Made by a program: the position numbers and the translations under genes. A stretch of DNA of 64,000 nucleotides from assembly GCA_030431455.1 (NCBI GenBank), contig JAUIJE010000005.1:124001-188000 (forward strand). Direction: 5' to 3'. The notes under the pieces were generated by a model. It saw only the letters and a list, made by a program, of their open reading frames with translations. It did not search any database and was not told the DNA's origin. The stretch is from a bacterium. GTDB lineage: Bacteria; Myxococcota; UBA727; JAUIJE01. This document shows, one piece after another, positions 12,657 through 22,350 of this stretch (its first letter is position 1; every line of letters begins with the position of its first letter).

Positions 12657-13499
12657 GTGACCCCCGCGCGCGACACCTTCCGCCTCGTCGTGGCCTACCA
12701 AGGCACACGGTTCGCGGGCTACCAACGCCAAGCCGCGCAGCGCACGGTGCAGGACGTGCTCGAACAGGCGGCCCAGACCCTCGCCCACGATGCGCCCGCG
12801 CTGACCTGTGCGGGGCGCACCGACGCGGGGGTGCACGCCCGCGGTCAGGTGGTGAGCTGTGTGATGACCGCGCGCCCCCCGCTCGAACGGATGGTGCTCG
12901 CGTTCAACGCGCTGCTCCCCGAGGACGTGGCCGTGCGTTCGGCGCAAAAAATGCCCGAAGGGTTCTGCGCCCGCCGGCACGCGGTGGGCAAGCGGTATGT
13001 GTACCGGGTGCTCACCGGGCCGGCCCGGGACCCGTTTGTGCGGGAGGTGGCCTGGCACCACAAAGGCGCGCTCGATGTCGACGCGATGCAGGCCGGGGCC
13101 CGGCACCTCGTGGGCGAACACGACTTCGAGAGCTTCCGGGCCTCGTCGTGCCAAGCCGCCCACGCCCGCCGGTACGTGTGGAAGGTCGAGGTCACGCGGG
13201 CCGCGCACGAGGTGCACATCGACGTGCGGGGCAACGCCTTTTGCCAGAACATGGTGCGCATCATCGCCGGTACCCTGGTCGAGGTCGGGCGGGGCCGGCA
13301 CCGACCCGATGACGTCGCGGCCATGCTCGCGGAAAAGACACGCGAGGCCGCCGGGCAGACCGCCCCCGCGCACGGGCTCTGCTTCGACCGGGTCTACTAC
13401 CCCGACGCCCTCGACGACGCGGACATCCCCGACCGGGCTCGCTTTCCACGATATCCCGTGACGACCGAGACCTGGCCCTTCGGCAATGTGACGGCTTAG
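12657..13499 (+). CDS. truA: tRNA pseudouridine(38-40) synthase
   Basis: A 280-residue TruA: it converts uridines 38-40 of the tRNA anticodon arm to pseudouridine in the cytoplasm. The catalytic Asp56 lies in CAGRTDAGVHARGQV, the family signature. NALLPEDVAV, the FCARRHAVGKRYVYRV segment and FCQNMVRIIAGTLVEVG are also conserved. The length is near the family norm, with a slightly longer C-terminus. The start is a GTG at 12657 (MTPARDTFRLVVAYQG). The stop overlaps the end of the convergent PilZ gene. Confidence 0.95.
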   Translation: MTPARDTFRLVVAYQGTRFAGYQRQAAQRTVQDVLEQAAQTLAHDAPALTCAGRTDAGVHARGQVVSCVMTARPPLERMVLAFNALLPEDVAVRSAQKMPEGFCARRHAVGKRYVYRVLTGPARDPFVREVAWHHKGALDVDAMQAGARHLVGEHDFESFRASSCQAAHARRYVWKVEVTRAAHEVHIDVRGNAFCQNMVRIIAGTLVEVGRGRHRPDDVAAMLAEKTREAAGQTAPAHGLCFDRVYYPDALDDADIPDRARFPRYPVTTETWPFGNVTA

Positions 13500-13834
13500 T
13501 CGGCGGCGCGACCGCGGATGATGCCTTCGATCACCGCGCGGCTGGAGTCGTCCAGGTTGACGAACTCGATGCCGATGCCCTTGGTCGACCCGTCGGGGTT
13601 GTCGACGACGCGCACCACCGTGCCCAGGCCCTCGATCAACGGGCCGTCATCACGCACCGTGAACTGGAAGTAGACCATCGAGCCCAGCTGCCGCGGGTGG
13701 TCGGTCTCGATGAACATGCCCCCGGTGGAGATGTTGGGCGCGTACTTTTCGCGAAAATGGGCATAGTCATCGCTGCGAAACTGCACCAGCAGATTGAGCG
13801 GGACCCGGGCGTGTTTGCGTCGTTCAGCTGACAT
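13496..13834 (-). CDS. PilZ-domain (c-di-GMP-binding type) protein
   Basis: A 112-residue stand-alone PilZ domain with both c-di-GMP motifs: RKHAR near the N-terminus (Arg6 and Arg10, RxxxR) and NISTGG (D/NxSxxG). The flanking pattern, with GGMFIETDHP and GIGIEFVNLD, resembles the PilZ variants expanded in Myxococcus. It is the last gene of an apparent minus-strand operon after the DUF4956, HlyD and outer-membrane-factor genes, only 29 bases downstream of the latter. It may therefore report c-di-GMP levels to that envelope complex. The domain call is firm; the regulatory link is inferred. Confidence 0.85.
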   Translation of the reverse strand: MSAERRKHARVPLNLLVQFRSDDYAHFREKYAPNISTGGMFIETDHPRQLGSMVYFQFTVRDDGPLIEGLGTVVRVVDNPDGSTKGIGIEFVNLDDSSRAVIEGIIRGRAAD

Positions 13835-13863
13835 TCATGTTCCGGCCGTGGACGGGCGAGAGG

Positions 13864-15138
13864 CTATTGTGGCCCATCCAGGGTGCGCGACAAAAGTGTG
13901 CCGGTCATGGCGTCCAAATTGAGCGCGGCTTGCTCACACTCCAGGGCGGCCCGGAGCTGGGCCCGCTTGGCCCGCAGAATGCGCGCGCGGAGGATGGCCA
14001 TGTCCACCGGGTCCCCCTGCCCCTCCTGGAGCGCGGCTTCGATCTGGCGCTCGGAGCCATCCAGGGTCGGGGCCGCGGTGGTGGTGTAGAAATCCATGAT
14101 CGCCCGCTGCCCGGCCAACTCCGCCGCCGCCCGGTGCACGTCCGCCTCCAGGGCCAACCGCTCGTGCCGCAGCTCGGCCTCGTGGCGGCGCTCGCGGGCC
14201 GCGTAGCGCGCAAAATCATCCTGGGAAAAGTTGAGCAGGGGCAGGTCGATGGACAGCGACAGGCGCACCGACCATGGCTCTTGGGAGCTGCCTGGGGTGA
14301 AGCCGGCCTGGACAAAATCGAACCAAGGGATGAGCCCGGCGAAGGTCTCGCGATACGCGGCCGCGGCCGCGTCCCGCTCCGCGCTGATCCCGGCCAACAC
14401 CGGCGACACCTGGACGGCCTGGTCGACCAACGTCTGCTCGGCGCTGTCCGCGACCTCCCGGCAGCGATCCGCCGGCGGCGCGGTCAGCTCGAGGGGCGTG
14501 TCCGCGGGCAGGCCGACCAGGTAACGCAGCCGCACCTCCTGGCTTCGGGCCTCGACCTGCAACCGCGACAGATCGGCCTGCGCGTCGTTGGCGTCGAGGG
14601 CGGCCACGGAGACATCGAGCCCGGTGGCGAGCTGCGCGGCGAACCGCCGCTGCAACAGGTCGTGGATGCGGGTGGAGAGCGCGACCTGCTCCTCGGCGAG
14701 GTCGATGCGGGCCCGCAGGTTGCGCAGCTCGGCGTGCAGGCGGTGCGCTTCGCGCACGATGAGGTTTTTTTCCTGGTCGACGACCGCTTGGCGCGCGGCC
14801 ACGCGCCGGCCCTGGGTCGATTGCGACAAGCCAAACGCCCGCAGCCGGGGCGCGGGCACCCGGATGCCAAACTCCGTGTCCTCCAACGCCCGGTCGTAGC
14901 CCCCCCCGGTGAACAGCGGGTTGATCAACCGATCCGAGCGGAAGTCGCCCATGCGCACCTCGGGGTTGCGCAACATCTGGCCGAGGGTGCTCTCGGCGTT
15001 TTCCTCGTCGACGCGGTGACCGAGCGCCTCGAGCACAACCGCATTGTCAAGAGCGCGGCGGGCGGCGTCTTCGGGGGTCAGGGCCACCGGTCCCGCCCCG
15101 GCCAGCGCCACCGCCAGCACAAAGGCGCCGGGCGTCAT
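13864..15138 (-). CDS. TolC-like outer membrane factor (OEP family)
   Basis: A 424-residue protein with a short signal peptide (MTPGAFVLAVALAGAGPVA) and the long Ala/Glu/Arg-rich helices of TolC-type outer-membrane channel proteins, in two similar halves (about 25-215 and 235-420). LRYLVGLPADTPLEL is a typical inter-half element. It should form the trimeric outer-membrane and periplasmic duct of a tripartite export complex. Its start overlaps the stop of the HlyD-like adaptor by four bases (15135-15138), so the two are co-translated. It carries no lipobox. Confidence 0.85.
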   Translation of the reverse strand: MTPGAFVLAVALAGAGPVALTPEDAARRALDNAVVLEALGHRVDEENAESTLGQMLRNPEVRMGDFRSDRLINPLFTGGGYDRALEDTEFGIRVPAPRLRAFGLSQSTQGRRVAARQAVVDQEKNLIVREAHRLHAELRNLRARIDLAEEQVALSTRIHDLLQRRFAAQLATGLDVSVAALDANDAQADLSRLQVEARSQEVRLRYLVGLPADTPLELTAPPADRCREVADSAEQTLVDQAVQVSPVLAGISAERDAAAAAYRETFAGLIPWFDFVQAGFTPGSSQEPWSVRLSLSIDLPLLNFSQDDFARYAARERRHEAELRHERLALEADVHRAAAELAGQRAIMDFYTTTAAPTLDGSERQIEAALQEGQGDPVDMAILRARILRAKRAQLRAALECEQAALNLDAMTGTLLSRTLDGPQ

Positions 15139-16265
15139 GTGCCATCCCCGCGGGTGAAGCTCACGTTGAACGCTTGGCCGGGCAGCATCGGCTCGCCCCC
15201 CTGCGCAATGTCAATGAACACTTGCCGCCCAAACACCGGCTCCCCCGGCACCTTGCGAAAGCGAATGGGGAACTCCGCGATGCGGGCGCCGAGTTGGCTG
15301 ACCCGGCCCTCGCGGATGGCGCCGATGCCGTCGCTGGGCACGATGCGGGCCTGGTCCCCTTGTTTGACCCGGCGGGCCCAGCGCTCGTCGACGTAGGCGA
15401 TGACCCGGCTCGGCCGCTCGGCCACGATGGTGAGGATGGGCACGCCCCGGCGGGCCACGTCCCCCTCGCGGAGCACGTGGTCGACGACGGTGCCGGCGAA
15501 CGGGGCGCGCAGGGTGAGGTCACCGAGCGCGGCCTCGAGCCGTTCGATGCGGTGGCGCTGGGCCTCGATCGCGGCCCGGTACGGGGCCAAGCGTTGGTCT
15601 TGTTCGCCGTCTTTGGGGCTCGAGGCCCGCTCGCGGGCCCGGGCGGTCCGGGCCACCCCGTCGGCGGCCCGGCGGAGGGCTTTGGACTCGGTGATCTTCT
15701 GGCTGAGGGCGGCCTTCTTCAGCTCCAGGGCGGCCAGGCTCGGCGCCGCGGCGAGGCCTTTTTGGATCAGGTCTTGTTGGCGCAACAGCTGTTGCTCGAG
15801 CTGGGCGAGCTCGGCCTCGTCGCGCTTGAGCTCGGCGTCGATGCGCGCGACCTCGAGCGCGGCCTCGTCCGCGCGCTGCGAAAGCCGGGCCACGTCCTGC
15901 CGCTCGTCGTCGGAGAGGGCCGCGAGCTGGGCCGGGACCTCGAGCTCGAGCCGGTTGAGCTCGGCCTTGGCCGCGGCCAGCTCGGCGGTCATTTGCGCCT
16001 GGTCGAACTCGACCAGGACCTCGCCCTTTTGCACGGTGTCGCCCACCCGCTTTTTCACCGCCACGATGCGCGCGTCGGCCGCGGGGGAGATGCCCACCGT
16101 GACCGCCTCGGCTTCGCCCGGGGCCACGTTGGTGCCGACGACGTGGCGGCCGAGCACGATGGTGATCACCACCGCCACCCCCCACAGCACCCAGGGGGCG
16201 ATGCGGCGCCCGCGGCGGGACAGCCGCCAGCCACTTTGGCGCAGGCCGGCGGACTCAGAGCTCAA
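15135..16265 (-). CDS. HlyD-family periplasmic adaptor (membrane fusion protein)
   Basis: A 376-residue protein: a cytoplasmic N-terminus with many Arg, one transmembrane helix (about 24-43, PWVLWGVAVVITIVLG), a split biotinyl-lipoyl domain (ADARIVAVKKRVGDTVQKGEVLVEFD and LRAPFAGTVVDHVL), a long coiled-coil hairpin (about 100-245), and a beta-barrel region near the C-terminus. Such adaptors join an inner-membrane partner to a TolC channel. No ABC, RND or MFS pump gene is adjacent; instead the preceding gene, overlapping by 11 bases, encodes a DUF4956 membrane protein. Confidence 0.9.
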   Translation of the reverse strand: MSSESAGLRQSGWRLSRRGRRIAPWVLWGVAVVITIVLGRHVVGTNVAPGEAEAVTVGISPAADARIVAVKKRVGDTVQKGEVLVEFDQAQMTAELAAAKAELNRLELEVPAQLAALSDDERQDVARLSQRADEAALEVARIDAELKRDEAELAQLEQQLLRQQDLIQKGLAAAPSLAALELKKAALSQKITESKALRRAADGVARTARARERASSPKDGEQDQRLAPYRAAIEAQRHRIERLEAALGDLTLRAPFAGTVVDHVLREGDVARRGVPILTIVAERPSRVIAYVDERWARRVKQGDQARIVPSDGIGAIREGRVSQLGARIAEFPIRFRKVPGEPVFGRQVFIDIAQGGEPMLPGQAFNVSFTRGDGT

Positions 16266-16998
16266 CCGTGGCCTCCTGCATCGCCAATGTCACTGTCCGC
16301 GCGCCTTCTATCTCGGACAGCGACGTGACCAGCCGGGGCTCGTCCCCATCGTCCTTGAGGGTGACGTGATAGGCGTACTCCAGCTCTTGGCCCTGGGTCA
16401 CCTCGCGCAGCGTGATCAACACGTAACGACGACACACCGCCCGCAACGCCTTTTGCAGCGCCTGCTCGGCCTCGGCGGAGGCGGGCAACACCAGCCGCAC
16501 CACCCCGTCGAACTCTTGGTAGGTCCCAAATCCAGTGACTTTGAGCCCCACGATGACGACCACGAACAGCATCGTGCCCAAGTAGCCCGCGGCGTAGCTG
16601 CCGGTGCCGGACGCGATCCCGGACCCGAACGCCGCGAACACGAACACCATGTCGAGGGGATCGCGCAGGTTGGTCCGGAACCGGATCAGGGCCAAGGTGC
16701 CGACGATGCCGATGCCGCGGGCGAGGGAGTTGCCGATGGCGAGCATGAGCATCGCCGAGACCACGCCGGCCACGACGAGCGCCTGCACCATATTTCGTGA
16801 ATAGGAGAGCCCGCGGTAGGTGACGAAATACGTCGCGGCCACCGTCTGGGCGAGGATGTACGCCGACAAGAGCGACACCAAGGTCGCCTGCCAACTCGAC
16901 GCGCCGCCGGAGAGCGACACCAACTGACCAAAAATCTCCATCAACCGTGAATGTGACCAGGCAAAATGCCCGGGCGCAAAAAAAAGCGCATCGGTCAC
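16255..16998 (-). CDS. DUF4956 multi-pass inner membrane protein
   Basis: A 247-residue protein with about four or five membrane helices in residues 30-155, then a soluble C-terminal domain of about 85 residues. The diagnostic stretch GTLALIRFRTNLRDPLDMVF (about 115-134) followed by GSGIASGTG is the DUF4956 signature. Family members are often found next to VTC-type or CotH-type proteins, and their function is unknown. Here it heads an operon with an HlyD adaptor and a TolC-like protein, so it takes the position of the pump. The start is a GTG at 16998; an ATG at 16941 (MEIFGQLV) is an alternative. Confidence 0.8.
   Translation of the reverse strand: MTDALFFAPGHFAWSHSRLMEIFGQLVSLSGGASSWQATLVSLLSAYILAQTVAATYFVTYRGLSYSRNMVQALVVAGVVSAMLMLAIGNSLARGIGIVGTLALIRFRTNLRDPLDMVFVFAAFGSGIASGTGSYAAGYLGTMLFVVVIVGLKVTGFGTYQEFDGVVRLVLPASAEAEQALQKALRAVCRRYVLITLREVTQGQELEYAYHVTLKDDGDEPRLVTSLSEIEGARTVTLAMQEATVEL

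Positions 16999-21337: not shown

Positions 21338-21348
<11 letters not shown>
20368..21348 (+). CDS. Endonuclease/exonuclease/phosphatase-family lipoprotein
   Basis: A 326-residue protein with a lipoprotein signal (LLFLLCLASAC) and an Asp/Ala/Pro-rich spacer, then an EEP-fold domain: TWNIENFP (metal-binding Asn and Glu), VEEI, GLHLKAG, LLGDFNT and ISDHLPV. It should be a surface or periplasmic magnesium-dependent hydrolase of nucleic acids or phosphoesters. It is co-translated with the metallophosphoesterase before it and overlaps the next GD-repeat gene by 11 bases. Confidence 0.85.

Positions 21349-22350
<1,002 letters not shown>

Follow-up and report, generated by a model that had tools for sequence, protein, structure and literature searches.

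A DUF4956–HlyD–OEP operon without an adjoining pump: the probable envelope part of a VTC-linked system that may secrete polyphosphate

Four closely packed envelope and PilZ genes

The window (the whole 64,000-nucleotide stretch of DNA that we analyzed, C1:124001–188000 of a 7.7 Mb genome) carries a minus-strand run of genes at 13496–16998 for a DUF4956 protein, a HlyD-type adaptor, a TolC-like factor, and a PilZ protein, all of which score above the Pfam cutoffs. The DUF4956 inner-membrane protein (16255–16941; PF16316, 38.9 bits versus a cutoff of 30.6) overlaps by 11 bases with the HlyD-type periplasmic adaptor (15135–16265; HlyD_3, 48.9 bits versus a cutoff of 22.2, and HlyD_D23, 34.4 bits). 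The adaptor in turn overlaps by 4 bases with the TolC-like outer-membrane factor (OEP, 13864–15138; PF02321, 72.1 bits versus a cutoff of 22, in two stretches), and after a gap of 29 bases comes a stand-alone PilZ protein of the TIGR02266 type (13496–13834; PF07238, 61.3 bits versus a cutoff of 22.5). The four genes, both overlaps, and the gap are all as the original prediction described them.

DUF4956 most likely begins at the ATG at 16941, which gives 228 amino acids, rather than at the GTG at 16998, because 30 of 37 aligned relatives start at window residue M20 or later. (The GTG at 16998 is a possible alternative start.) The adaptor's start codon is a TTG inside the 11-base overlap. The adaptor has a single N-terminal membrane helix and about 150 residues between its two lipoyl halves, a stretch that would form a long helical hairpin. 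Its best match in NCBIfam is to the EmrA/EmrK family, well under that family's cutoff.

The AlphaFold model of DUF4956 (pLDDT 84.8) has about five membrane helices (36–60, 68–88, 92–106, 114–131, and 135–155) followed by a C-terminal ACT/ferredoxin-like domain. All 38 sequences of alignment A4 (the window protein plus 37 of the 51 named loci described below) share R106, F107, R108, and D116, and the loop at 107–113 is likely cytoplasmic, judging by charge. Twenty of the 38 members match the Pfam family MgtC (PF02308) at E values of up to 1 (best, 2.3e-4); the window protein has no match to PF02308, and a relative from genome G033 scores 23.7 bits, below the cutoff of 31.4. When DUF4956 was compared to MgtC with hhalign, the probability was 82.7 with alignment A1 (0.2 for the reversed control) and 51.8 with A4, using only three MgtC sequences (from 3 of the 14 loci found by the MgtC search). 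With the DUF4956 model as the query, Foldseek placed the C-terminal domain of MgtC (2lqj) at rank 8 (E = 9.2e-3). The fold search covered the ACT domain only; it listed no known fold for the membrane part, which does not by itself point to a new fold. DUF202 (Vtc1) was matched neither by the window protein nor among the 24 families matched by the 38 members. These comparisons point to DUF4956 being a distant MgtC-like protein, with a relationship that is weak and falls short of membership in the MgtC/SapB family.

Conserved neighbors of DUF4956

Scanning the genomes of a GTDB-based collection with a DUF4956 alignment of six sequences gave 51 named loci, which belong to Myxococcota, Acidobacteriota, Bdellovibrionota, Verrucomicrobiota, and Planctomycetota. 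Although these loci were retrieved by DUF4956 alone, HlyD is on the same strand and within 500 bases of DUF4956 in 46 of the 51 (the loci were drawn by two DUF4956 peptide patterns from six HlyD-clade sequences, and this count describes that clade). The adjacency of HlyD and DUF4956 is more than chance. VTC is within 500 bases in 39 loci and within 4 kb in 43, and OEP is within 4 kb in 28. (Our home-made gene caller overlooked a number of genes, particularly in loci that are AT-rich, and also the VTC gene of G008; in addition, five of the loci, L061, L062, L102, L104, and L110, are the same contigs as in the relatives' genome set.) The typical gene order is VTC-DUF4956-HlyD-OEP. The original prediction held that repeated co-occurrence of DUF4956 with HlyD and OEP would support a system, and that is what we found; an association unique to this genome is ruled out by the 51 loci in five phyla. 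The four-gene architecture is well supported.

Five loci lack HlyD: L104 and L106, which are at contig ends, and L079, L097, and L111. Eight loci are without VTC; in four of them (L074, L096, L104, and L105), the contig stops at or close to one or both ends of the locus. The Bdellovibrionota loci are arranged as DUF4956-HlyD-x-VTC; the x protein scores above the cutoff for none of the Pfam families but looks like a divergent OEP. In a second set of 26 loci from relatives (L033–L049 and L052–L060), HlyD is beside DUF4956 in just five, and one of the 26, L038, is truncated by the end of its contig. In our sample, only one clade of DUF4956 has the HlyD module.

We scanned ten genes at and around the operon, and none is annotated as an ABC, RND, or MFS pump; nor does the window contain the motif pair of an ABC ATPase. 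Across the 51 named loci, a single gene has the ABC motif pair (3 kb away, in L083), and no pump family is among the matches listed for 73 same-strand neighbors or for the large neighbors that were scanned singly. On the basis of these neighbor-family, single-gene, and ABC-motif scans, we rejected a nearby pump gene as the missing partner, although there is a small chance of an RND or MFS gene among the matches beyond those listed. The prediction of a conduit that has no adjoining pump and whose inner-membrane component is unusual is borne out and extends across the 51-locus survey; a pump that is normally adjacent in relatives would have counted against it, and these scans showed none. What needs correcting is the view of DUF4956 as the only partner on the inner-membrane side: the system normally has a fourth gene, for a VTC-domain polymerase, which in this genome lies 28 kb away.

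We also surveyed 58 genomes, this one included, of which 26 have a relative of the window's DUF4956. VTC is present in 25 of the genomes and DUF4956 in 32, and the 25 all fall within the 32 (Fisher p = 2.7e-10, uncorrected for relatedness). Among the nearest relatives, VTC-DUF4956-HlyD runs into a contig end in G032 and G008, and G043 has the order VTC-DUF4956-HlyD-OEP. The seven genomes with DUF4956 only are G001 (a weak partial match), G003, G006, G010, G017, G031, and G048 (which had a weak VTC match in one search and none in another). G003 and G006 have DUF4956-HlyD-OEP, and in G010 DUF4956 is at a contig end; no match to VTC was found in these three genomes, which are 92–95% complete. Since the trio is kept in G003 and G006 without a VTC match, it may not need VTC, or a different enzyme may serve it. 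Conversely, many VTC-DUF4956 pairs in the 58 genomes lack HlyD, so the pair would have some other job there.

Some neighbors are related to phosphate. In L079, a Porin_O_P protein (119.7 bits) occupies the place of HlyD-OEP, and after it come CotH and a purple-acid-phosphatase-type protein; L107 has Porin_O_P (176.6 bits) downstream. Many HlyD proteins have a C-terminal extension, which the window's HlyD lacks, and all 10 of the long extensions that we scanned (alignment A6) match Phytase-like (PF13449) at E values of up to 0.01. The one extension that was modeled is a beta-propeller and, in structure, is most similar to YjiK (Z = 21.1, 223 residues aligned, 2.9 Å). A phosphatase role from the propeller fold was dropped, as it resembles YjiK and glycosidase-type and paraoxonase-type propellers, not phytase. 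Apart from the Phytase-like extension, each of the phosphate-related neighbors is found in few loci.

The VTC enzyme and a split operon

VTC has so far been studied as a eukaryotic device. Searches of this genome turned up two places with VTC and two with DUF4956. The VTC gene on C1 (at about 111557–112336) is outside the window, 28 kb from the window's DUF4956, and its product matches PF09359 at 112.4 bits (cutoff 23). In 20 aligned VTC proteins, the RxExK, R-x-R, ExK, and SK elements are invariant or nearly so, and the C1 protein keeps all of the active-site residues that we checked. A profile of the 20 proteins matches Vtc4 structures in PDB (3g3q, E = 2.7e-25), in which RxExK and the R-x-R pair are present as well; a PDB search with the C1 protein as a single sequence found nothing. 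By its numbering, the R-x-R pair would correspond to R264 and R266 of Vtc4, which are essential for synthesis according to the accessible part of PMC8749416. The C1 protein is thus a predicted polyphosphate polymerase of the Vtc4 type with intact active-site residues. No SPX domain was found in the four VTC proteins that we scanned with Pfam. The genome also has a match to PPK1, so VTC is not its only possible source of polyphosphate.

The other VTC and DUF4956 genes of this genome are on C26, with a CotH-like gene as their neighbor (VTC, CotH-like, DUF4956); the CotH-like protein scores 22.5 bits against Pfam's CotH, just below the cutoff of 23.8. Because the C26 set has its own VTC and only two places were found for each family, the C1 VTC is left for the window's operon. 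Trees of VTC and DUF4956 with 51 shared rows are largely congruent, albeit with flagged long branches and unsure deep forks, and the sister of L061 is the C1 VTC in one tree (97/83) and the window's DUF4956 in the other (98/52). Furthermore, upstream of the C1 VTC are genes for a chemotaxis-receptor-type protein (MCP) and a ferredoxin, and homologs of these two (61% and 50% identical) lie directly upstream of DUF4956-HlyD-OEP in G006. Because the trees largely agree and the MCP and ferredoxin flanks are shared with G006, VTC and the trio were probably once in one locus, and the operon was split here. Nevertheless, that VTC is unlinked to the trio in this genome counts against our main reading, which is that the DUF4956-HlyD-OEP genes in the window probably make up the membrane and envelope portion of a four-gene system that is conserved, VTC-DUF4956-HlyD-OEP.

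A proposed route for polyphosphate and its rivals

We propose that VTC, a cytoplasmic triphosphate-tunnel enzyme, would sit at the inner face of DUF4956 and polymerize the gamma-phosphate of ATP into polyphosphate there. The polyanion leaving VTC could enter DUF4956 at the 107–113 loop, and growth of the chain would drive it through DUF4956, much as the VTC complex of yeast moves its product into the vacuole. The HlyD adaptor would dock DUF4956 to the OEP channel, so that the chain exits the cell. Because growth of the polymer would drive translocation, our proposal makes a pump unnecessary. We infer that the product is polyphosphate, that DUF4956 is the conduit, and that the direction is outward. 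The original prediction named polyphosphate among the exported substances to test for, and in this it guessed well. Overall, it seems rather more probable than otherwise that VTC makes polyphosphate, that DUF4956 passes it, and that HlyD and OEP carry it out. We see an even chance that this is a dedicated trans-envelope machine for secreting polyphosphate, with a VTC-type polymerase, an MgtC-like translocase, a HlyD-OEP duct, and growth-driven export, in several phyla that include predatory bacteria.

We also considered that the exported polymer might be something else: VTC and (where present) CotH could phosphorylate or prime a glycan or a teichoic-like polymer, which HlyD-OEP would export. 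Eight of the 51 loci have CotH on the same strand and no more than 4 kb away, proteins with LTD domains recur near the surveyed loci, and VTC-DUF4956-CotH adjoins Pel exopolysaccharide operons in Gram-positive bacteria (accessible text of PMC7112168). However, no glycosyltransferase is among the matches listed (25 families, with 56 more matched) for the 73 unlabeled same-strand neighbors, and many loci hold little beyond the four genes. We consider this explanation unlikely. Less likely again is that DUF4956 itself is an MgtC-like pump for small molecules or ions, in tripartite efflux with HlyD and OEP, while VTC has a regulatory role or is a phosphate-related enzyme in its own right. In its favor are the trio's persistence in G003 and G006 without a VTC match, the MgtC-like sequence, and the ACT domain. 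Against it, DUF4956 accompanies VTC in every one of the 25 VTC genomes, usually as its neighbor, and the DUF4956 model is small and has no ATPase domain.

The remaining explanation, a secretion machine under the control of c-di-GMP with PilZ as an integral regulator, has the local gene order in its favor, as PilZ is just 29 bases downstream and its motifs are intact (RxxxR at residue 6 and NxSxxG, of the [DN]xSxxG type, at residue 34). PilZ is coupled to polymer export elsewhere, in Alg44 and BcsA. However, PilZ is adjacent to DUF4956 in none of the 51 relatives, which rules it out as a conserved component, and it is nearby in only one (4.1 kb away, behind two opposite-strand genes), so control by c-di-GMP would be a local addition here; as a feature of the system, which is how it was originally predicted, it is unsupported. 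Also, the PilZ protein matches TIGR02266 at that family's cutoff, and the genome has 36 matches of this type (14 of these 36 domains went into our sensitive PilZ profile), so a PilZ gene next to the operon is not very remarkable. We think that an integral role for PilZ is quite improbable.

If polyphosphate export is correct, then bacteria have a coupled system that makes and threads polyphosphate and reaches the outside. It would also explain an adaptor-channel pair with no pump, it would give DUF4956 a function, and it could be tested in cultured Nannocystis. To our knowledge, no VTC-DUF4956 pair from bacteria has been assayed. The HlyD-OEP extension of the pair was not found in the full-text literature that we searched, which was mostly non-subscription and did not extend to bioRxiv preprints.

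Parts of the proposed system resemble known ones. DUF4956 is weakly like MgtC/SapB in the sequence of its membrane core and in having an ACT-type C-terminal domain, but it is below the Pfam cutoff and has other gene partners. A HlyD-type adaptor and a TolC-like factor are shared with tripartite efflux and type I secretion (EmrAB-TolC and HlyBD-TolC), which have a pump; here, no ABC, MFS, or RND pump was found alongside, and a polymerase pair is present instead. In the synthase-dependent secretion of exopolysaccharides such as alginate, cellulose, and Pel, there is a dedicated path across the envelope and, in some cases, control by PilZ. The likeness is in polymerase-driven export, the dedicated path, and some PilZ control, but here the polymer would be inorganic phosphate, and no glycosyltransferase was seen.

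The same two families, VTC (called poly-phosphate polymerase) and DUF4956, are neighbors in clusters with CotH (-DUF4832) beside the Pel operons of Gram-positive bacteria; these clusters are linked to polysaccharide genes, and no trans-envelope HlyD/OEP part is reported in the accessible text of PMC7112168. The available portions of two other papers describe VTC and CotH genes in C. perfringens (PMC2879425) and a Bacteroides DUF4956 gene that is listed, along with a DUF2490 gene, as iron-regulated (PMC10434189). The yeast VTC complex couples synthesis of the chain to its translocation, which takes place through a channel that is lined by basic residues and involves TM1 (PMC9911596, in the part available), and the distribution of VTC in eukaryotes is treated in PMC10657179 (likewise in part). 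The eukaryotic complex (Vtc4/Vtc3/Vtc1) shares with our system the triphosphate-tunnel polymerase domain, the same active-site residues, a membrane-protein partner, and the proposed coupling of synthesis to translocation. It differs in that the membrane partner there is the Vtc1/DUF202 helices and here is DUF4956, with no SPX domain found in the four VTC proteins scanned, and in that the chain here would cross two membranes, via HlyD and OEP.

Genes flanking the operon

A 4Fe-4S ferredoxin is encoded before the gene for VTC (the polyphosphate polymerase domain) in the window's own genome (locus L050:5996-6481) and directly before DUF4956 in the related genome G006 (L102:9498-9842). At the other end, past OEP, proteins with a lamin tail domain (LTD) recur 3' of the operon (loci L063, L090, L093, L098, and L101); LTD was the most frequent Pfam family listed for the unlabelled same-strand neighbors (9 of 73). 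Also, a protein of ~568 amino acids adjoins VTC and DUF4956 at L053-L058 and L059 (genomes of family f13 and one other). The one member that we scanned, from L054, has an N-terminal Thymidylate_kin domain (Pfam, 91.8 bits); this protein might be a partner for nucleotide recycling.

Other features of the same genome

Outside the window, a second contig encodes another VTC-CotH-like-DUF4956 set (G000:C26:135483-139267, locus L051). This set lacks HlyD and OEP, and its DUF4956 and VTC belong to a different clade than those of the window's system. Within the window, a predicted plus-strand protein contains a long glycine-aspartate repeat (GDGDGD; 21338-21600).

VTC genes of Clostridium perfringens

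In Clostridium perfringens (genes CP4_0460-0464), membrane proteins of ~225 amino acids that are annotated as "tubulin/FtsZ" adjoin VTC domain genes, according to PMC2879425. The genes described there are probably misannotated VTC-DUF4956 pairs; our DUF4956 profile also gives weak matches to FtsZ.
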